DNA from: Planctomycetota bacterium
Lineage (GTDB): Bacteria; Planctomycetota; Planctomycetia; Gemmatales; Gemmataceae
Direction of reading: 5' to 3'
NCBI GenBank assembly: GCA_016873095.1
Contig: VGYC01000076.1
Span: 1 to 32,290, forward strand
Length of the DNA stretch: 32,290 nt
This document shows, piece after piece, positions 6,172 to 21,737 of this stretch. The notes below the pieces were generated by a model. It had not been told where the DNA came from. It ran no database searches and saw only the letters and a program-made list of their open reading frames with translations. Made by a program: the position numbers and the translations under genes. Each line of letters begins with the position of its first letter. Positions within the stretch are counted from its first letter, which is position 1.

Positions 6172-6485
6172 ACGTACCTTTACCGCCAGGATGCTGGTTG
6201 GGGTAATAAACGAGCAGTTAATCCATCCTGCTCAACATATACCTCAAAATCCGCAGAAAGCCAGTGCCTTGCAGGAAAGTTTGGCACGGAAAGATCCCGC
6301 GTCCTGAGATTCCGCCGCGATCAATGAATTCTGGCTCACAAAAAACCGCTTTTCACGCTAGCAATCGGTTTTTCCGCCCGGTAGACTAGGGAAGCTGACC
6401 TGCCTAGCTTCAGAACCTACCTTCGGGCACGACAAGCAAACTGACCCATCGACGATCCTTGCCGACGGCCGGGGTCGAGGTAGCC
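6172..6485. other. Divergent intergenic region (about 314 bp)
   Basis: This region separates the divergent cyclase and MacA-like genes and should hold both promoters, but no strong boxes could be assigned. One inverted repeat is present: aaaaaccg at 6341-6348 with cggttttt at 6366-6373. No gene is supported here. Confidence 0.5.
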
Positions 6486-7865
6486 ATGAGACGAGCGCTG
6501 TACGTTACACTGGTACTGCTATTGCTGGCATCCGGGGGGCTGGGAGTCTGGTACTGGCAAGCGCAAGCCTCGCCCAGAACGATCTTTCGAACAGCCGCGG
6601 CCGAGCGCGGGCCCTTCCTCGCAGTCATCGCAGCCACCGGGCCGATCCAGCCCGAAGAGGTCATCGACGTCGGTGCCCAGGTCGCCGGTCGCATCGAACG
6701 CTTTGGCATCGATCCACGCAGTCTCCAGCAGACAGCCTGGTTATCCGCACTCACCGGCTTCCCGAGCGGCAATGGCCTGGGCGGCGTGCTGCTGGGCGGC
6801 TTGATCATGCCCAAGCCAATCGATTACCGCTCACCTGTCGAGGAAGGCACCATCCTCGCGCAAATCGACCCAGTGCTGTATCAGTCGCGTGTTGACCGCT
6901 CGCGTGCCGACTTGCAGCGGGCCCAGGCCGATCTCCTGCAGATGCAAGCAAAGCTGACGCAGGCGGAACGCGACTGGGCGCGGGCTCAGGACCTGTACAA
7001 TCGCAAAGCGATTTCCCAGTCCGACCACGACCTGGCTCGTGCCAGTTATGACACGGCTGTTTCGAACCTGGGCGTGGGCAAGGCGGCCATTGCACAGGCC
7101 CACGCCGTTCTGCAAGAAGCCGACACGAACCTCGGCTACACGACCATTCGCTCCCCCGTGAAGGGCGTCATCATCGAGCGCCGCGTCAATGTCGGCCAGA
7201 CGGTCGTTGCCAGCCTCAACGCCCCGAGCCTTTTTCTCATCGCCAAGGACATCAAGCGGTTACAGATCTGGGCATCGGTGAACGAGGCGGATATTGGCCA
7301 TATCAAGCCCGGGCAGGCTGTTCGCTTCAACGTCGATGCCTTTCCCCAGGACGAATTCGTCGGCCAGGTGAACAAGGATCAGCCGCGGCTCAATGCCAAC
7401 ATGAATCAAAACGTGGTCACCTACACGGTCGTGGTCAACACCGACAACGCCCATGGACGGCTGTTGCCGTACATGACTGCCAACGTCAAGTTTCTGGCGC
7501 ATCAGCAAGATAATGCTCTGCTGGTTACCAATGCGGCACTGCGCTGGCGGCCCAAGATGAACCAGGTGGCTCCGGACGCGCGCAAGGCCTACGCTCGCTC
7601 CGGCAAGCAGAATCGCTCGTCGCCGAGAATGGTCAAGTCTGCCGCAGAACGCGAACGCCATGATATGGGAACTGTCTGGATCGTGGATGACGGCTTCGTC
7701 CGGCCGATCCGCGTCGCCATCGGTATGAGCGACGGCGCCATGACACAAGTCCTGGGCGGCGATCTGCGTGAAGGCATGGAACTCGTCGTCGGCGAGGACC
7801 GCGTCGAGGCGGCCGGCGACGAGCACAATCCGTTCTCGGTAAAGATGTTCGGAGGCAAGAAGTAG
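6486..7865 (+). CDS. macA: MacA-like periplasmic adaptor (membrane fusion protein)
   Basis: The product is 459 aa from ATG 6486, which has GAGG 5 nt upstream; a TTG 27 nt earlier lacks support. A membrane anchor (about residues 4-23) is followed by a split lipoyl half-motif (IDVGAQVAGRIERFG ... YRSPVEEGTILAQID), an alpha-helical hairpin (about 130-220, rich in Q/A/R/D with LYNRKAISQSDHDLA) and the second lipoyl half (TTIRSPVKGVIIERRVNVGQ). A beta-barrel and membrane-proximal domains follow (ASVNEADIGHIKPGQAVRF; ending at VVGEDRVEA). MacA-type adaptors link an inner-membrane MacB transporter to an outer-membrane channel and stimulate its ATPase. Oddities are an insertion of roughly 40 residues at about 72-116, and a polar basic loop near residues 370-390. 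The ATPase and permease genes follow immediately. Confidence 0.88.
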   Translation: MRRALYVTLVLLLLASGGLGVWYWQAQASPRTIFRTAAAERGPFLAVIAATGPIQPEEVIDVGAQVAGRIERFGIDPRSLQQTAWLSALTGFPSGNGLGGVLLGGLIMPKPIDYRSPVEEGTILAQIDPVLYQSRVDRSRADLQRAQADLLQMQAKLTQAERDWARAQDLYNRKAISQSDHDLARASYDTAVSNLGVGKAAIAQAHAVLQEADTNLGYTTIRSPVKGVIIERRVNVGQTVVASLNAPSLFLIAKDIKRLQIWASVNEADIGHIKPGQAVRFNVDAFPQDEFVGQVNKDQPRLNANMNQNVVTYTVVVNTDNAHGRLLPYMTANVKFLAHQQDNALLVTNAALRWRPKMNQVAPDARKAYARSGKQNRSSPRMVKSAAERERHDMGTVWIVDDGFVRPIRVAIGMSDGAMTQVLGGDLREGMELVVGEDRVEAAGDEHNPFSVKMFGGKK

Positions 7866-13531: not shown

Positions 13532-13792
13532 ATGTTCATTGTCGAAATCATAACCCGCACGGGCAGAATTTGTGAGCGATTTCGCTCGTTCGCGCGTGCC
13601 AAGCGACGCATCGACCAGTTCCAGGACAAAGACCTGGTTGGCATTCCATTCATTTACCAGGAGTTGCCCGACGGCTCACAACGGCTGGTGCGTGAGGACG
13701 GCAAGCCCTTGCAGTGGCACCGCCACCCGGATGAGAGCCTGGCGAGTGACGAACCACTGCCGCTGGTGGAACCGAACCCGGAGAAGCCATGA
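13532..13792 (+). CDS. Small uncharacterised protein coupled to the histidine kinase
   Basis: The product is 86 aa, starting FIVEIITRTGRICERFRSFA. It has no motif I recognise. The N-terminal half is basic and beta/helix-like, the middle reads FIYQELPDGSQRLVREDGKP, and the C-terminus is acidic and Pro-rich. Its TGA overlaps the ATG of the membrane histidine kinase (ATGA), which strongly supports it as a real gene of the same operon. In-frame upstream ATGs exist (for example 13457), but they have no better ribosome binding site. It may be an accessory or regulatory protein of the two-component system (inference from position only). Confidence 0.65.
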   Translation: MFIVEIITRTGRICERFRSFARAKRRIDQFQDKDLVGIPFIYQELPDGSQRLVREDGKPLQWHRHPDESLASDEPLPLVEPNPEKP

Positions 13793-15333
13793 ATCCACGT
13801 CTGGCCTGGCGATTTCTGGTGCCCATGGTGGCGGTGAGTCTGTTGCTGCTGGCGATCGGCGTGGTGGCGGCATGGTCCATGCATCGGCTGCAAAGCGAGG
13901 TTTCGGAGATCCTGGCGGCGCACGTGGGCAGCGTCCGCGCGGCCGGCGAGTTCGAGATCAGCATGCGTGAGACCCGCAAGCATCTCAGCTACTGCCTGCT
14001 CACCGGTGACCGCGCACACTTGCGGCACATTCCGGAGCTGCGCGCGCAGACCGACTACTGGTTGACCGAAGCGGAACGGCTCGCGACCACTCCGAAGGAG
14101 GCATCGCTGACGAGGCGTATTCGCCAGGGGTACGAACAGTTTTGCGAGCAGCTTGCCGAGATCTCGGAAAGCCGATCCACACCGGTGTCCCCGCGCAAGG
14201 TTCTTGACGAAATCCACGACGGACTGATGAAGGAGATTCTCAAGCCGGCGCACGACTATCTGGAACTCAACGAGGAGACGGCGGTGGCCGCCAGCAAGGA
14301 GAACCAGAGGATGACGCAGCGGATGTCGCTGGTGCTGCTGCTGCTGGGCAGCACGGGCTCGCTGGCCGGTTTGCTGGCCGGCTTCGCCATTGCCCGGGGC
14401 ATTCGCCAGTCGCTGGTGCAGCTCAGCTTGCCTCTGGGGGACGCGGCCGGCAAGCTCAAGGAAGTCGTGGGTCCGATCACCTTTTCGACGCGCGGCGGCT
14501 TCAAGGACCTGGAGAGAATCCTGCGCACCGTGGCCGAGCACGTCGGCACCGTGGTCAGACGCCTGCAAGAAAGCCAGCGCGAGATCCTGCGCTCCGAGCA
14601 GCTGGCGGCGGTCGGACAGATGGCAGCCGGCATGGCCCACGAACTGCGTAACCCCCTGATGGCCATGAAGCTGCTCGTGCAGGCCGCCGCCGAGCGTGGC
14701 CTGAGGGATCGCGATCTCACCGTACTGGAGGATGAAATCTTGCGCCTGGAGAATCTGGTGCAAAGTTTCTTGAATTACGCGCGGCCCCCCCAGATCGAGA
14801 AACGACCGGTCAATCTGGTGGACTTGATCCGCCAGAAACTCGTGCTGGTGGCCAGCACCGCTGAGCCGCGCGGCATTCACATCGACGTGGAATGGCCGAC
14901 CGTCCCGGTCATCGTCGAGGCCGACCTGGGACAGATGCGGCAGGTCTTGCTCAATTTGCTGCTGAACGCCGTGGATGCCATCGAGCCGCCAGGCGGGCGT
15001 GTGATCATCAGGATCCGAGACGATCGGCACAGTGGCACAGCGCCGTCCGGAGTCGCGATCGAAGTCGAGGACACCGGCCGGGGCCTGCCCCTCGACCTGG
15101 GCGCACGCATTTTCGAGCCGTTCGTCAGTTCCCGTGAAACCGGGCTGGGACTGGGGCTGTCGATTTGCAAGCGCATCATGGAGGCCCATGGCGGCAAGAT
15201 CAGCGCTTGCAGCTTGCCGCAAGGCGGGGCGCGTTTCACGGTCTGGTTGCCCGCTGCCGTGGCGAGCGATTCGAGCCATTCCGAGGAGCCGTCGCGTGAG
15301 GTGACCGATGTCGAAGTTGCTGGTCGTCGATGA
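13789..15333 (+). CDS. Membrane-bound sensor histidine kinase (NtrB/ZraS-like)
   Basis: The product is 514 aa. It has transmembrane helix 1 (about 11-30), an extracytoplasmic helical sensor region of roughly 150 residues, and helix 2 (about 179-202). A HAMP-like linker and a HisKA domain follow, with His284 in GMAHELRNPL. The HATPase domain has Asn393 (LLNAVDAI), EDTGRGLP and ETGLGLGLSICKRIMEAHGG. The H-box AHELRNPL is the type found in kinases paired with sigma54 activators. The pairing fits the next gene, an NtrC-type regulator whose start lies inside this gene (26-base overlap). The sensor region is mostly helical and its ligand is unknown. Together they form one signalling operon with the small gene at 13532. 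Confidence 0.92.
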   Translation: MNPRLAWRFLVPMVAVSLLLLAIGVVAAWSMHRLQSEVSEILAAHVGSVRAAGEFEISMRETRKHLSYCLLTGDRAHLRHIPELRAQTDYWLTEAERLATTPKEASLTRRIRQGYEQFCEQLAEISESRSTPVSPRKVLDEIHDGLMKEILKPAHDYLELNEETAVAASKENQRMTQRMSLVLLLLGSTGSLAGLLAGFAIARGIRQSLVQLSLPLGDAAGKLKEVVGPITFSTRGGFKDLERILRTVAEHVGTVVRRLQESQREILRSEQLAAVGQMAAGMAHELRNPLMAMKLLVQAAAERGLRDRDLTVLEDEILRLENLVQSFLNYARPPQIEKRPVNLVDLIRQKLVLVASTAEPRGIHIDVEWPTVPVIVEADLGQMRQVLLNLLLNAVDAIEPPGGRVIIRIRDDRHSGTAPSGVAIEVEDTGRGLPLDLGARIFEPFVSSRETGLGLGLSICKRIMEAHGGKISACSLPQGGARFTVWLPAAVASDSSHSEEPSREVTDVEVAGRR

Positions 15334-16765
15334 CGAGGCCAACGTCCGTTATTCACTGGAGCGCAGCCTCGAGTCGGATCGATTGCAGATCGTGACGGCG
15401 GGGACGGCGCTCAAGGGCATCGAGCTTGTGCGCCGCGAGAAGCCGGATGCGGTCATCCTGGACATTCGCTTGCCCGACCTGTCCGGACTGGATGCCTTCA
15501 ACCAAATTCGCGAGATCGATCCGCGCTTGCCGGTGATCGTGATCACGGCGTTCGCGACCACGGACACGGCCATCGAGGCCATGAAGCGCGGCGCCTTCGA
15601 GTATCTGGTCAAGCCTGTGGACTTATCGCAGCTTAGAGAAGTGGTGGACAAGGCTGTTGAACTGAGCCGCTGGCGGCACGTGCCGGCGGTCTTCGAGGCC
15701 GAGCCGCTTGCCGGCGGCGAACGCATCGTCGGCCAGGCCGCGGCGATGCAGGAGGTTTACAAGGCCGTCGGCCGCGTCGCGCCGCAGGACATCAACGTCT
15801 TGATTCTCGGCGAGACCGGCACCGGCAAGGAACTGGTGGCGCGGGCGATCTTTCACCACAGCCGCCGTCACGACAAGCCTTACCTGGCGATCAATTGCGC
15901 AGCGATACCGGAAACGTTGCTGGAAAGCGAGATGTTCGGCCACGAGCGCGGTGCCTTCACCAGCGCCGACCGCCGACGCATCGGCAAATTCGAGCAAGCC
16001 AACGGTGGCACGATTTTCCTCGACGAGATTGGCGACATGTCCAGTGGCGTGCAGTCGAAGGTGCTGCGACTTCTGCAGGAGCAGCAGTTCGAGCGCATTG
16101 GCGGCAACGAGACGCTTCGGACCGACGTGCGCATCATCGCTGCCACCAACCAGGACCTCGAATCTCAGGTCGCCGACGGCAAGTTCCGCAAGGACCTGTA
16201 TTATCGTTTGCACGATTTCACCATTCGCTTGCCCCGGCTGCAAGATCGCCTGGAAGACTTGCCTCTGCTCGTGGAGCATTTCATCAAGGTATTCAATCAA
16301 GACCTGGGCAAGGAGGTGCGGTCGGCAACGCCGGAGGCGATGAAACTCCTGGAAAGCCATGAATGGCCCGGCAACGTGCGCGAACTCCAGAGCGCTATCA
16401 AGTATGCGTTGCTTCATGCCAGCGGCGGCGTGCTGGGCGCGGATTCCTTGCCGGACACCGTCAACCCTGCACGAAACCATGCGGCGACGCCGGCGGTTGC
16501 CGATACACTGGACCTCGTGCAACTGATTCGTCAGCTGCTGGCGGCGGGCGAGTCCGATGTGTACCACAAGCTGGTGCTGGCCGCGGATCGCGTCGCACTC
16601 ACAGAAGTGCTGCGCCATGCCAAGGGGAGCCAGGTCCAGGCCAGCGAGATTCTGGGCATCTCTCGGACAACGTTGCGCGCGAAGATGCGGGCAGCTGGGT
16701 TAGCTGTCGAAAAACACCTCTTGCCAGATTCTGGCCAGGCGGAACAGAAACTGGACATCTCTTGA
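15308..16765 (+). CDS. Sigma54-dependent NtrC-family response regulator
   Basis: The product is 485 aa. The receiver domain (1-120) has Asp8/Asp9, phospho-acceptor Asp52 in VILDIRLPD and Lys102 in LVKPVD. The AAA+ domain (about 138-370) has Walker A GETGTGKE (168-175), Walker B GTIFLDEIGD and arginine-finger region FRKDLYYRL. A C-terminal Fis-type helix-turn-helix (about 425-460) contains QASEILGISRTTLRAKMR. The sigma54-contacting loop reads GAFTSA (215-220) instead of GAFTGA. It should remodel sigma54 holoenzyme at -24/-12 promoters after phosphorylation by the upstream kinase. A candidate promoter of this type lies just downstream, ahead of the transporter cluster, which makes that cluster a likely target. 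Confidence 0.93.
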   Translation: MSKLLVVDDEANVRYSLERSLESDRLQIVTAGTALKGIELVRREKPDAVILDIRLPDLSGLDAFNQIREIDPRLPVIVITAFATTDTAIEAMKRGAFEYLVKPVDLSQLREVVDKAVELSRWRHVPAVFEAEPLAGGERIVGQAAAMQEVYKAVGRVAPQDINVLILGETGTGKELVARAIFHHSRRHDKPYLAINCAAIPETLLESEMFGHERGAFTSADRRRIGKFEQANGGTIFLDEIGDMSSGVQSKVLRLLQEQQFERIGGNETLRTDVRIIAATNQDLESQVADGKFRKDLYYRLHDFTIRLPRLQDRLEDLPLLVEHFIKVFNQDLGKEVRSATPEAMKLLESHEWPGNVRELQSAIKYALLHASGGVLGADSLPDTVNPARNHAATPAVADTLDLVQLIRQLLAAGESDVYHKLVLAADRVALTEVLRHAKGSQVQASEILGISRTTLRAKMRAAGLAVEKHLLPDSGQAEQKLDIS

Positions 16766-16790: not shown

Positions 16791-17000
16791 TAAATCTCTT
16801 TTGCTCTAATAGATGCGCTGCGATTGGCGTCAAGGTCCTCGGCTTCTTGAAGTATCGGCATGCCGTTTGCACTTGGCGGAAGTTGCCGTTTCGTCACTCG
16901 ATCGGTCGAATTGGGCAACTCACTGGATCGGGAGGCGGAGCGGCTTTTTTCGGCCTTTCGCGTCTTCTCTCCCTGCGGCCGAATGCGAGGAATTTGTCCA

Positions 17001-18602
17001 ATGAATGTGACATCGCCGAGTATTCCGAGTCTCGCAAATCTCAAGGCGGATTTCCTGGCCTCGATTGTTGTGTTTCTCGTGGCGCTGCCGTTGTGCATGG
17101 GAATGGCCATCGCCTCGGGATTGCCGCCGGCATCAGGGCTGATCACCGGCATCATCGGCGGCTTGTTTCTCGGCATGATCGGCGGGAGTCCCTTGCAGGT
17201 CAGCGGGCCGGCCGCCGGATTGACGGTCATCGTCTTCGAACTCGTGCGTAACGGCGTCGCAACGATTGGCTTGATCGTGCTGCTGGCGGGCGTGATGCAG
17301 ATGGCCGCCGGCATTCTGCGCCTGGGGCAATGGTTCCGGGCCGTATCTCCGGCGGTGATTCACGGAATGCTGGCCGGCATCGGCGTGCTGATCGTCGCCA
17401 GTCAGTTCCACGTCATGGTCGATGACATTCCCAAGGGAAGCGGGCTGGAAAACATCGTCTCGATACCGGATGCCGTGATCAAAGGTGTCTTTCCTCTGGA
17501 CGATGAATCCAAGCATCACAAGGCGGCCATGATCGGCGTCTTGACCATACTGGTCATCGTGTTGTGGAAGGCGCTGGCCCCCCTCAGGCTGCAAGTGATC
17601 CCGGCCCCATTGGTGGGCGTCGTGGTCGGTACGGTCACGGCGGCGGTGAGCGGTTTCAGCGGCGGCAACAATGGCATTCTGTGCGTGACGCTCGGCGACA
17701 ATCTGCTCAATTCAATCGCCTTGCCGACGCTGGATGGACTCGCCGCCGCGCTTTCCTGGCCTATCGTACTGGCGGCTGGTTCGCTGGCGCTGGTCGCCAG
17801 CGCGGAGACCCTGCTTTGCGCCACCGCCGTCGATCAAATGCATAACGGCCCGCGCACCCGCTATGACCGCGAACTGTTCGCCCAGGGCGCCGGCAACCTC
17901 GTATGCGGCGTGCTCGGCGGACTGCCCATGACCGGTGTCATCGTCCGTTCCGCTGCGAATGTTCAGGCCGGCGGTAAAACCCGGTTGTCCGCGATATTGC
18001 ACGGCGTCTGGCTCCTGGCCTTCGTCATGGTGCTGCCGGGCGTGCTGGAATGGATACCCACTGCAAGCCTGGCCGCCATCCTCGTCTATACCGGCTACAA
18101 GCTCGTCAATCTGAGGATTCTTGATGCGCTGTGGCAGTACGGCAAGGGCGAGGCCTTCATTTACCTGGCCACCATCGTCGGCATCGTCACAACGAACTTG
18201 CTCACCGGTATCCTGATCGGCGTCGGTCTTTCCATCGCGAAGCTGTTGCACACGTTCTCTTCCCTGTCCCTGCGGCTGCAAGTGGATCCCGAGGCGAATC
18301 GAACGACGATGCTCATTCGCGGGGCGGCGACATTCATCCGCCTGCCCAAGTTAGCACGGGCCCTGGAATCGGTCCCCGCCACCTCCGAACTACACGTGCA
18401 TTTCGAGGATCTGACATACATCGATCATGCCTGCCTGGACCTGGTGATGAACTGGGAAAAGCAACATGCGGCATCCGGCGGCACCCTGGTCATCGACTGG
18501 GATACGCTGCACGCCCGGTTTCGCCGTCCCGGCCGGCGAGCCCACGAGAATGGCCGGCAAAAATCCACGCTGAAGTTGCCGAAGTCGGTGGCGGGCCACT
18601 AG
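17001..18602 (+). CDS. SulP-family anion transporter with STAS-like tail (first copy)
   Basis: The product is 533 aa from ATG 17001, which has AGGAA 8 nt upstream; the longer in-frame opening from 16860 is not protein-like. It is a polytopic membrane protein with about 10-12 helices. SulP signatures include FLASIVVFLVALPLCMGMAI, GGSPLQVSGPAAGLTVIV, SAETLLCATAVDQMHNGPRT and MTGVIVRSAANVQAGGKTR. The C-terminus (about 425-510) folds like a STAS domain (LHVHFEDLTYIDHACLDLVM). SulP proteins move sulfate, bicarbonate or other anions, usually with Na+ or H+. The neighbouring carbonic-anhydrase-like and MpsC-like genes favour bicarbonate (inference). It is closely similar to the transporter at 20109, so the pair arose by duplication. 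Confidence 0.93.
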   Translation: MNVTSPSIPSLANLKADFLASIVVFLVALPLCMGMAIASGLPPASGLITGIIGGLFLGMIGGSPLQVSGPAAGLTVIVFELVRNGVATIGLIVLLAGVMQMAAGILRLGQWFRAVSPAVIHGMLAGIGVLIVASQFHVMVDDIPKGSGLENIVSIPDAVIKGVFPLDDESKHHKAAMIGVLTILVIVLWKALAPLRLQVIPAPLVGVVVGTVTAAVSGFSGGNNGILCVTLGDNLLNSIALPTLDGLAAALSWPIVLAAGSLALVASAETLLCATAVDQMHNGPRTRYDRELFAQGAGNLVCGVLGGLPMTGVIVRSAANVQAGGKTRLSAILHGVWLLAFVMVLPGVLEWIPTASLAAILVYTGYKLVNLRILDALWQYGKGEAFIYLATIVGIVTTNLLTGILIGVGLSIAKLLHTFSSLSLRLQVDPEANRTTMLIRGAATFIRLPKLARALESVPATSELHVHFEDLTYIDHACLDLVMNWEKQHAASGGTLVIDWDTLHARFRRPGRRAHENGRQKSTLKLPKSVAGH

Positions 18603-18679: not shown

Positions 18680-19099
18680 ATGACGGAGCGCCAGTGCCGA
18701 AAGAACAAGGGAGATGCGGAGTCAGCGATTTGCCAGGCCCTGATCCGTTTCGAGAAGGAGTACATGGGTCGCGGCCCTCTGGAGATACGTTCCTTCATCG
18801 TGGATGATATGGTGCTCGTGAGGCTCAAGGGAGTACTGACGCAGGCAGAGATCAAGCTAGCCGAGGTCGAGGAAGGCCCGCGTGGCCGGTACCTGCTCAA
18901 GCAGGTTCGCCAGGAACTGCTGGAGCGCGGCAGGCCGCTTCTCGAAGTTGCCATCCGCGACATTCTCGGCGTCGATGTGGTCAGTGTGCACACCGACATC
19001 AGTACCCGCACGGGCGAGCGCATCATTGTGTTTACGCTGGAGCGCCCGCCCACTCTGGAGAGCAGGCAATCAGTGACGATCGCCACGGCGGGCGAATAA
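18680..19099 (+). CDS. DUF2294 / MpsC-like protein
   Basis: The product is 139 aa, typical for the family. It has the conserved blocks ALIRFEKEYMGRGPLEIRSF, IVDDMVLVRLKGVLTQAE, LKQVRQELLERGRPLLE and VSVHTDISTRTGERIIVFTL. This is DUF2294 (Pfam PF10057), renamed MpsC after the Staphylococcus membrane-potential-generating locus. The mpsAB genes of that locus are linked to CO2/bicarbonate supply. The biochemical role of MpsC is not established. There is no signal peptide or membrane helix, so it is probably a soluble accessory. GGGAGG lies 9 nt before the ATG. Its position between a SulP transporter and a carbonic-anhydrase-like gene, without MpsA or MpsB here, suggests it serves the SulP-based system (inference). 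Confidence 0.82.
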   Translation: MTERQCRKNKGDAESAICQALIRFEKEYMGRGPLEIRSFIVDDMVLVRLKGVLTQAEIKLAEVEEGPRGRYLLKQVRQELLERGRPLLEVAIRDILGVDVVSVHTDISTRTGERIIVFTLERPPTLESRQSVTIATAGE

Positions 19100-19140: not shown

Positions 19141-19285
19141 GAACGAGAATTGACGGACCGACGGTTTTCATCCATGAGACGATAGCTGCGTGCGAGAATG
19201 CGGGGAAAGACCAAGCCCCGGATTGACGCCGCCAGGAATATACCGTGCCCGAAGTCCTTTGAGATTCGATGCTCGAGGGAAAACA

Positions 19286-19329
19286 GGCCGGAAGCCACCG
19301 TGAACAGGTGGCTTTCGGCCATTTTTTTT
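19286..19329 (+). terminator. Strong intrinsic terminator directly before the carbonic-anhydrase-like gene
   Basis: A 14-bp stem (19286-19299 with 19307-19320, one G-U pair) closes a 7-nt loop (gtgaaca) and is followed by A and eight T (19322-19329). The ribosome binding site AGAGGAAG of the next gene begins within two bases of the T-run, with the ATG at 19343. It may simply end the upstream transcript, or it may be a leader attenuator controlling read-through into the carbonic-anhydrase-like and second SulP genes. Confidence 0.85.
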
Positions 19330-19342
19330 GAGAGGAAGCTCG

Positions 19343-20050
19343 ATGTCAAGCCTGTCCACTTGCCCTCGCGATCCCCGTGGCGTCGTCAGCGCGCGCAAGC
19401 TGAAAGCTGCCGAGCCCGTTCGCGACAGGGGCGGCCCCCGCGCCATGCTCATCACCTGCACCGACTCCCTCCTTGACGAGCATTTGCTGCCGCGGCTGCG
19501 TGACGAACCGCTGATGGTATGGCGCACCTCCGGGCACGTCGTGCCCCCTTATGGCGCCGGCCACGGCGACGCCGAGGAGGCCATCGATGACGCTGTCCGC
19601 AGATCAGGCGTTCGCGAGATCATCATGTGCGGACACCTGTCGTGTCACGCCCTGCAAACCCTCATGCACCATGAGTCGCACCAGTCGCACCAGTCGCACG
19701 AGTCGCACGAGTCGCACAAGGCCCATGGTGACTGCCTGCAATTCGCTCGTCCGGCGCAGCGCATCGCCGAGGACAAGTACGGTCGGTTGCCGCGCGAGCA
19801 ACTCCTGCAAGCGATGATCGAAGAGAACGTATTCTTGCAGATGACGCACCTGCGCACTTACCCTGTCGTGCGTGACGGCCTGGCAAGGGGCACGCTCATG
19901 CTGCACAGTTGGATCTACGATCACGACACGGACGAGATCTATGGCTACGAGCCAGGCGAGAGCGCGTTGTTGCGGCGCATGCGCGGAAAGGGCCGGCCCA
20001 GCCGTCAACTCCTCCCCTACATCGACCCTTGCGAGATTTACCTGGCCTGA
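19343..20050 (+). CDS. Beta-carbonic anhydrase-like protein with altered active site
   Basis: The product is 235 aa from ATG 19343, with AGGAAG just upstream. Beta-carbonic anhydrases hydrate CO2 using zinc held by Cys-His-Cys plus an Asp-Arg dyad. Here the ligands are Cys39 (LITCTDS), His98 and Cys101 (MCGHLSCHAL), and Asp41 is kept. The Arg of the CxDSR motif is Leu43, and the usual RNAGN is RTSGH (61-65). The VVPPYGAG block and the C-terminal MIEENVFLQMTHLRTYPVVR and MLHSWIYDHDTDEIYGYEP segments match the family well. An inserted stretch at 109-128 holds eight histidines. It lies between MpsC-like and SulP genes. It may be a weak or repurposed enzyme, for example a bicarbonate or zinc sensor. 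Confidence 0.85.
   Translation: MSSLSTCPRDPRGVVSARKLKAAEPVRDRGGPRAMLITCTDSLLDEHLLPRLRDEPLMVWRTSGHVVPPYGAGHGDAEEAIDDAVRRSGVREIIMCGHLSCHALQTLMHHESHQSHQSHESHESHKAHGDCLQFARPAQRIAEDKYGRLPREQLLQAMIEENVFLQMTHLRTYPVVRDGLARGTLMLHSWIYDHDTDEIYGYEPGESALLRRMRGKGRPSRQLLPYIDPCEIYLA
19673..19717 (+). repeat. Five tandem 9-bp units encoding a His-rich loop
   Basis: Units of gagtcgcac or cagtcgcac at 19673, 19682, 19691, 19700 and 19709, in frame, encode alternating Glu/Gln-Ser-His triplets inside the carbonic-anhydrase-like protein, immediately after its second and third zinc ligands. Confidence 0.9.
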
Positions 20051-20108: not shown

Positions 20109-21737
20109 ATGAAGCAAGTCAATCCGAGCGCTCGGCTTCGTGGCACCTTGATACCGGACCTGTCTGCATCGCTGGTGGTGTTTCTCGTGGCGTTGCCGCT
20201 ATGCCTGGGCATCGCCATCGCTTCTGGGGCGCCGCCCGTGGCCGGCATCCTGAGCGGCGTCATTGGCGGTCTGGTCGTCTCCAGTCTGGGCGGCAGTCCC
20301 ATGCAAGTGAGTGGCCCGGCCAACAGCCTCATCGTGCTGGTGATGCTGGTCGTCCAGCAACACGGGCTGGGCATGCTGGGGGTCATCGTGCTCGCCGCTG
20401 GCGCCTTGCAGCTTGCCGCGGGACTGGCGCGCGTCGGTCAGATCTTTCGAGCCATTCCGCCGTCCATCGTCCATGGGCTGATGACTGGATTTGCGGTCAT
20501 GATCTTCGCGGGCCAGTTTCACGTCATGCTCGACGACCTGCCGCGGACCACGACCGTTGACAACCTGCTGAGCATGCCGACGGCGATGTGGGAAGCACTC
20601 ATCTTGCGCGACGGCTCGCACCGAGCCGCGGCCATCGGCGCCTTGACCGTGATCTTGCTTCTGTCCTGGAAGTCGCTGTCGCCGCGGCGGCTGGCCTTCT
20701 TGCCGGCGTCGCTGGTTGCAGTCGTGGTCGCCACTGTTGTCGCCGAGGTAGCCCGCCTGAACGTCGGCCGCGTGCAACTGCCGGAAAGCTTGCTCGACTC
20801 GGTTCACTGGCTTGATTACCAGCTATTGCCGCGCCTGGCGGAGTTGCCAGTGCTCGAGGTGGCCATGGTGATGGCGTTCCTGGCGAGCACGGAAACGCTG
20901 CTGAGCGCGACGGCTGTGGACCGCTTGCACCAGGGGCCGCGCACGGACTACGACCGCGAATTGGTGGCACAGGGAATTGGCAACATGACCTGCGGCCTAG
21001 TGGGCGCGGTTCCCCTCACCGGGGTCGTGATCCGCAGTGCCACGAATGTCGCCGCCGGCGCCCGCACCCGGCTGGCAGGAGTCATGCACGGTGTCTGGTT
21101 GTTGCTGCTCGTCGTGCTGGCGCCGTGGCTGCTGTCGCGCATCGCCACGGCCAGCCTGGCTGCCGTCCTCGTGGTTGCGGTCTTCAAGCTCATCGATGTG
21201 CGTGCCTTGCGCGAGCTCTGGCGGCAAGACCGGCGCGAAATCGCCATCTACGCGGTTACAGCCCTTGGCATCGTGTTGCTCGGCGTCCTGCCGGGCGTGT
21301 TGCTGGGTATCGGCCTGGCCATCGCCAAGTTGCTGCACACGCTCGGTCGGCTCAAGATCCGCACCGTGATCGACGAGAGTCGGCGGCGCACGACCTTACA
21401 CCTTCGCGGCACGGCGACCTTCATGAGCCTGCCCAGGCTGGCCGCCGCCCTTGAGACCGTGCCGGTTGGCCACGAGTTGCACATCCACTTCGAGGAACTC
21501 AGCCTCATTGACCACGCCTGCCTCGATCTGCTGATGACGTGGGAAAAGCGGCACGAACCGGTGGGCAGCGCGCTGGTGCTGGACTGGGAAGACCTCGCCG
21601 CCCGCCTGAAGGCCCGCGCCGGTTGGCATGGTCCCAAGGTCAGCCGCGACGACGAACAGCCAACCGTGACGAGGCCAACGCGGCACCGCTTCTTTCGCGC
21701 TGGCTGGAGAACTGTGGCCGGCGCATACGACGAATGA
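20109..21737 (+). CDS. SulP-family anion transporter with STAS-like tail (second copy)
   Basis: The product is 542 aa, with a strong ribosome binding site (GGAGGA) before ATG 20109. It is a multi-pass membrane protein clearly homologous to the transporter at 17001 along its whole length. Shared blocks are LVVFLVALPLCLGIAIASG, GGSPMQVSGPANSLIVLV, STETLLSATAVDRLHQGPRT, LTGVVIRSATNVAAGARTR and a STAS-like LHIHFEELSLIDHACLDLLM. The STAS serine/threonine usually found after the aspartate is replaced (DHACL), in both copies. The tail after the STAS-like part (about 500-542) is basic and not conserved between the two. It follows the carbonic-anhydrase-like gene by 58 bp. A role in bicarbonate uptake is an inference from context; sulfate or other anions are possible. 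Confidence 0.92.
   Translation: MKQVNPSARLRGTLIPDLSASLVVFLVALPLCLGIAIASGAPPVAGILSGVIGGLVVSSLGGSPMQVSGPANSLIVLVMLVVQQHGLGMLGVIVLAAGALQLAAGLARVGQIFRAIPPSIVHGLMTGFAVMIFAGQFHVMLDDLPRTTTVDNLLSMPTAMWEALILRDGSHRAAAIGALTVILLLSWKSLSPRRLAFLPASLVAVVVATVVAEVARLNVGRVQLPESLLDSVHWLDYQLLPRLAELPVLEVAMVMAFLASTETLLSATAVDRLHQGPRTDYDRELVAQGIGNMTCGLVGAVPLTGVVIRSATNVAAGARTRLAGVMHGVWLLLLVVLAPWLLSRIATASLAAVLVVAVFKLIDVRALRELWRQDRREIAIYAVTALGIVLLGVLPGVLLGIGLAIAKLLHTLGRLKIRTVIDESRRRTTLHLRGTATFMSLPRLAAALETVPVGHELHIHFEELSLIDHACLDLLMTWEKRHEPVGSALVLDWEDLAARLKARAGWHGPKVSRDDEQPTVTRPTRHRFFRAGWRTVAGAYDE

Follow-up and report, generated by a model that had tools for sequence, protein, structure and literature searches.

Beta-carbonic anhydrase (beta-CA) genes that adjoin and are co-oriented with genes for SulP anion transporters have been described as can2-sulP clusters and as SulP-CA fusions (Felce and Saier 2004; PMC6458275), and the known members keep both the CxDSR and the HxxCG motifs. 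Coupling of a beta-CA-like protein to a membrane transporter also occurs in the DAB (MpsAB) inorganic carbon pumps, where DabA/MpsB has DabB as its partner and both keeps and needs its Asp-Arg dyad. For example, alanine changes of the dyad and zinc residues of DabA2 significantly impaired growth under CO2 limitation (PMC13144422). In S. aureus, MpsAB does not require the product of mpsC (PMC6689103), a gene also present at the locus described here. A beta-CA domain without a catalytic site can survive in a non-catalytic role, as in the second domain of CsoSCA, the alpha-carboxysome CA, where it is the fused half of an active enzyme. SbtB is a small soluble protein that is encoded beside the bicarbonate transporter SbtA and controls it; its PII-like fold places it in a family unrelated to the protein studied here, and the likeness lies in the proposed way of working.

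In the 32,290-nucleotide planctomycete stretch analysed here (the window), a beta-CA-like gene that lacks the dyad arginine, hereafter pseudo-CA, lies directly upstream of a SulP transporter gene, SulP2 (Table 1). While the SulP-linked beta-CA is a known kind, its probable pseudoenzyme form is new. Unlike the known SulP-linked enzymes, pseudo-CAs lack the dyad arginine and often a zinc cysteine, their SulP partners form a subclade of their own, and four of these genomes carry the usual CA-SulP pair at another site. In contrast to DabA, the pseudo-CA is paired with a SulP protein rather than with DabB, and Pfam scans of the main genes in the window detected MpsC but no DabA (PF10070) or DabB. 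In contrast to the CsoSCA domain, it is free-standing and sits beside a transporter. A text search of the open-access literature, with subscription papers outside its scope, returned no description of such a pseudo-CA.

Table 1. Coordinates of the features of the pseudo-CA locus and of the leader copies at related loci
Feature	Sequence	Position	Strand	Remarks
SulP1	window	16860..18602	+	second SulP transporter, 51% identical to SulP2; true start may be further in
MpsC-family protein (PF10057)	window	18680..19099	+	upstream of pseudo-CA at 5/6 loci
Leader	window	19245..19327	+	mpsC to pseudo-CA intergenic region; hairpin with covariation, then a second hairpin (19286-19320) resembling an intrinsic terminator, with T8
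Pseudo-beta-carbonic anhydrase	window	19343..20050	+	open frame, ATG at 19343, stop ending at 20050, 235 aa; C39/D41/H98/C101 kept, R43L, RNAGN to RTSGH, G102H, C-terminal IYLA
CTDSL motif	window	19457..19471	+	TGC ACC GAC TCC CTC (C39 T40 D41 S42 L43)
9-bp tandem repeat	window	19674..19717	+	4.9 copies, encoding His-rich loop HQSHQSHESHESHK
C-terminal DPCEIYLA tail and stop	window	20026..20050	+	final YLA invariant in 6/6, absent from canonical CAs
SulP2	window	20109..21737	+	SulP family anion transporter, weak STAS domain; subclade found only beside pseudo-CAs
Leader copy	L098	6854-6937
Leader copy	L150	846-930
Leader copy	L194	locus region
Leader copy	L151	9544-9630	-
Leader copy	G669:C65	16269-16351

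The window protein belongs to the beta-carbonic anhydrase family by descent, as judged from its sequence and predicted fold. It matches the Pfam Pro_CA family (PF00484) with 80.5 bits against a cut-off of 25.7, a cut-off that all six pseudo-CAs described below exceed. The closest solved relative by sequence is CcaA, the carboxysomal beta-CA (5swc; phmmer, E=1.2e-26), and in this alignment Leu43 falls on the Arg of CSDSR and His98 and Cys101 fall on the zinc His and Cys. An AlphaFold2 model (mean pLDDT 77.6) has CcaA 5swc as its best Foldseek match, and comparison with solved beta-CAs gave Z scores of 18.3 for pea CA (1ekj, the top match) and 17.8 for CcaA. However, CcaA is a carboxysome enzyme with a full active site, which the window protein lacks, and none of the window genes that were scanned with Pfam was recognised as a carboxysome gene.

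A sequence-only reading of this DNA had listed Cys39, Asp41, His98 and Cys101 as present, Leu43 in place of the dyad Arg and RTSGH in place of RNAGN, and all of these were found at the positions it gave (RTSGH spans Arg61 to His65). Codon 43 (19469-19471) is CTC where canonical CAs have an Arg codon. The three zinc ligands, Cys39, His98 and Cys101, are all in place. Beyond that reading, we note that the canonical CGHxxCG block is C96-G-H98-L-S-C101-H102, with the Gly of HxxCG changed to His at position 102, and that the gene carries a 9-bp repeat. This His-rich insertion is found in the window copy only, with none in the other five members of the clade, and the number of repeats could differ between strains.

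Searches for relatives covered about 920 distinct planctomycete genomes, with limited searches outside the phylum. Among the first 59 relatives and the family, the matches were canonical, at 30-41% identity. A class-wide search brought in two proteins without the Arg (in G669 and G632) that have the same gene context, and with these the view of the window protein as a lone divergent copy was rejected. A profile built from the three proteins (A1) added three further members and separates the clade, at 200 bits or more, from the next match at 137; a six-row profile gives 320 versus 153 bits. Pseudo-CAs without the Arg thus occur in six genomes of four families (f1, f109, f120 and three genomes of f114) among those searched. 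No clear clade member was found on plasmids, where the search returned canonical or unplaced CA relatives that were less than 60% identical (about 29-38% among the matches listed), and a genome-contig scan with the single sequence gave one match, which was spurious.

The six proteins form one side of a branch with SH-aLRT 100 in a 114-row tree that kept the active-site columns, and they are monophyletic with support of 100/99 in a 45-row tree from which the active-site and tail columns had been removed; the clade is small and its branches are long. An independent marker agrees, as the SulP proteins adjoining the pseudo-CAs form their own clade in a SulP tree (SH-aLRT 100). The six are best explained as a small clade that had no name before and descends from a CcaA-like CA of planctomycetes.

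The residues that distinguish this clade were defined by aligning its six members with 107 planctomycete canonical homologues, which were picked by similarity to the query or profile and so sample related CAs rather than the whole family. Position 43 is Arg in 107/107 canonical proteins and L, V, V, V, E and V in the pseudo-CAs. The clade marker is therefore the absence of Arg, not the presence of Leu: the proposal that an Arg-less beta-CA clade is linked to SulP and MpsC genes is borne out (SulP downstream at 6/6 loci, MpsC upstream at 5/6), while Leu as its defining residue is not. Ser42, Asn65, Gly102 and Ala103, each present in 107/107 canonical proteins, are replaced in most clade members, Gly102 in five of the six. 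Cys39, Asp41, Gly97 and His98 are invariant in both sets and Cys96 is nearly so. New residues fixed in the clade are Thr40, Leu44, Trp60, Glu92, Tyr173, Asp193, Tyr200 and the terminal YLA. One misread or misassembled base (CTC for CGC) would be enough to hide the Arg codon of a normal CA at position 43, and the assembly is in 548 contigs; a sequencing error here had been offered as grounds for refuting the loss of the Arg. The Arg is missing in five other genomes too, and several further invariant residues differ in the same protein, which contradicts an error and makes it exceedingly improbable.

The statement that the protein keeps its zinc ligands holds for the window protein and for one relative (G632), and fails for the clade. 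Position 101 is Cys in 107/107 canonical proteins and C, G, N, S, C and S in the pseudo-CAs. Because Cys101 is lost in four of the six (as Ser, Ser, Gly and Asn), a conserved zinc-binding role is unlikely, and conserved zinc binding across the clade was rejected. Residual metal binding or chemistry is possible, judging by the retention of Cys39, Asp41, Cys96 and His98 in all six. A reading built on this would have a metal site formed from these four residues, a new reaction, or metal storage by the His-rich loop of the window copy, unrelated to CO2. It draws on the invariant C39/T40/D41 and C96/G97/H98 blocks as well as on the His-rich repeat, but the other five members lack that loop, Cys96 is equally conserved in canonical CAs and hence is no new feature, and the neighbouring genes encode anion rather than metal transporters; we consider this reading rather doubtful.

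SulP2 starts 58 nt downstream of the pseudo-CA gene in the same orientation, and a SulP2-like gene lies directly downstream of the pseudo-CA gene at 6/6 loci. Among the same 296 genomes, the SulP2 and pseudo-CA profiles pick out the same five genomes, and the SulP2 subclade occurs only beside a pseudo-CA. The SulP2 gene of G632 is split across two contigs, and the next full-length SulP in the 296-genome SulP2 profile search scores 621 bits. SulP2 matches the Sulfate_transp Pfam family and scores 119 against a cut-off of 880 for the BicA NCBIfam model, so that the sequence does not settle its substrate. The window seems to hold SulP1 and an MpsC-pseudo-CA-SulP2 set side by side, and in four related genomes the SulP1 counterpart is preceded by a canonical CA. 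Directly upstream of SulP1 (13789-16765) are genes for a histidine kinase and a sigma-54 response regulator, possible regulators of the transporter genes.

MpsC was rejected as an obligatory partner, as in G669 the place before the leader is taken by an ORF of 544 aa that matches no Pfam family. MpsC also pairs with canonical CAs: L099, from another genome of the same family, has an mpsC gene (890-1285) directly upstream of a canonical CSDSR CA gene (1518-2189).

A separate canonical CSDSR CA is encoded in at least five of the six genomes (G000, G669, G632, G750 and G774), and in the last four of these it adjoins a SulP1-type gene; the search found no second CA in G763. The SulP gene beside the canonical CA of G669 (L154, 1134-3049) is in two overlapping frames, by frameshift or assembly error. 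These canonical copies bear on whether the pseudo-CA could still hydrate CO2, weakly or under some conditions, with another group in the role of the Arg, and serve SulP2 as ordinary SulP-linked CAs do. The fold, Cys39, Asp41 and His98 are kept in all six, the window copy and G632 have all three zinc ligands, and can-sulP pairs that encode an active-type CA are common (PMC6458275). However, Cys101 is lost in four members and Gly102 in five, a canonical CA is already available in at least five of these genomes, and R355A of the same dyad in DabA2 abolished growth under CO2 limitation (PMC13144422); residual anhydrase activity of this kind is accordingly judged unlikely.

The pseudo-CA evolves faster than the adjoining SulP2 (34-39% versus 57-70% identity to relatives), as would be expected of a CA that is redundant with another copy and drifting. 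Nevertheless, all six frames are open, and dN/dS is about 0.3-0.5 in pairwise estimates that are rough, with dS near saturation; the closest pseudo-CA pairs give about 0.3, and SulP2 gives about 0.17 in one of these pairs. The pseudo-CA genes are thus under purifying selection. Open frames in four families and newly fixed residues argue against decay, as do dN/dS values below 1, the invariant C terminus and the strict co-occurrence with SulP2, so that a decaying gene appears very improbable.

Between the upstream gene and the pseudo-CA gene, all six loci carry a hairpin, then a second hairpin that resembles a terminator, and a T run, and in the window this leader lies directly before a Shine-Dalgarno-like GAGAGGAAG. 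In the six-sequence leader alignment 89% of cells pair, with 10 pairs changed on both sides, versus 35-55% in slid controls, a comparison that favours the structure since it was derived from the same six sequences. Searching the six genomes with the leader model gave one strong copy each, at the pseudo-CA locus, and on this basis a genome-wide repeat was rejected; the weaker matches are mostly this hairpin read from the opposite strand, or a second element. The window stretch and five relatives have no Rfam match above the gathering score. A TTGAC block is invariant upstream of the pseudo-CA genes, and a consensus scan found no promoter at this block in the window or L098. Downstream of the first unit and just ahead of the start codon, several relatives have a second tandem hairpin and terminator unit, GGTCATTGTC...GGAATGTGGCCGGAGG...TTTTTT (L097 about 6400-6480, L098 about 6965-7041, also L150 and L152), which is missing from the window. 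The leader may act as an attenuator or mark where the mpsC transcript ends, and its terminator half may be simply a terminator.

We propose that the clade probably represents beta-CA pseudoenzymes fixed as dedicated partners of SulP2: they would act as accessory subunits without catalysis of their own, and hydratase activity would come from a separate canonical CA. Loss of useful CO2 hydration is the natural reading of the missing dyad Arg because further otherwise invariant active-site positions are gone as well. Partnership with SulP2 is suggested by the genomic link, namely strict co-occurrence and co-orientation. The pseudo-CA may dock on SulP2 through its YLA tail on a flexible linker, a speculative step suggested because YLA is invariant after a linker of low confidence (AlphaFold2 blocks 211-235, pLDDT 54-62). 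From the known CA-SulP association (PMC6458275), it might tune or stabilise the transport of inorganic anions, perhaps bicarbonate, by SulP2. Alternatively, the pseudo-CA would be an inorganic-carbon sensor whose dead site binds bicarbonate or CO2 without turnover and gates SulP2 via the C-terminal tail, with the leader as a ligand- or protein-responsive attenuator of the pseudo-CA-SulP2 operon; to this version we assign a low probability.

The usual account of CA-SulP pairs is metabolic coupling, with the enzyme interconverting the species that the transporter carries. A CA relative with impaired catalysis that has long been kept beside one SulP subclade, with an active CA in the genome, separates coupling from partnership. 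The clade offers a natural way to test whether proteins of the CA family bind and control SulP/SLC26 transporters without catalysis. Additionally, as all six score as Pro_CA, Pfam labels will misannotate pseudo-CAs as carbonic anhydrases.
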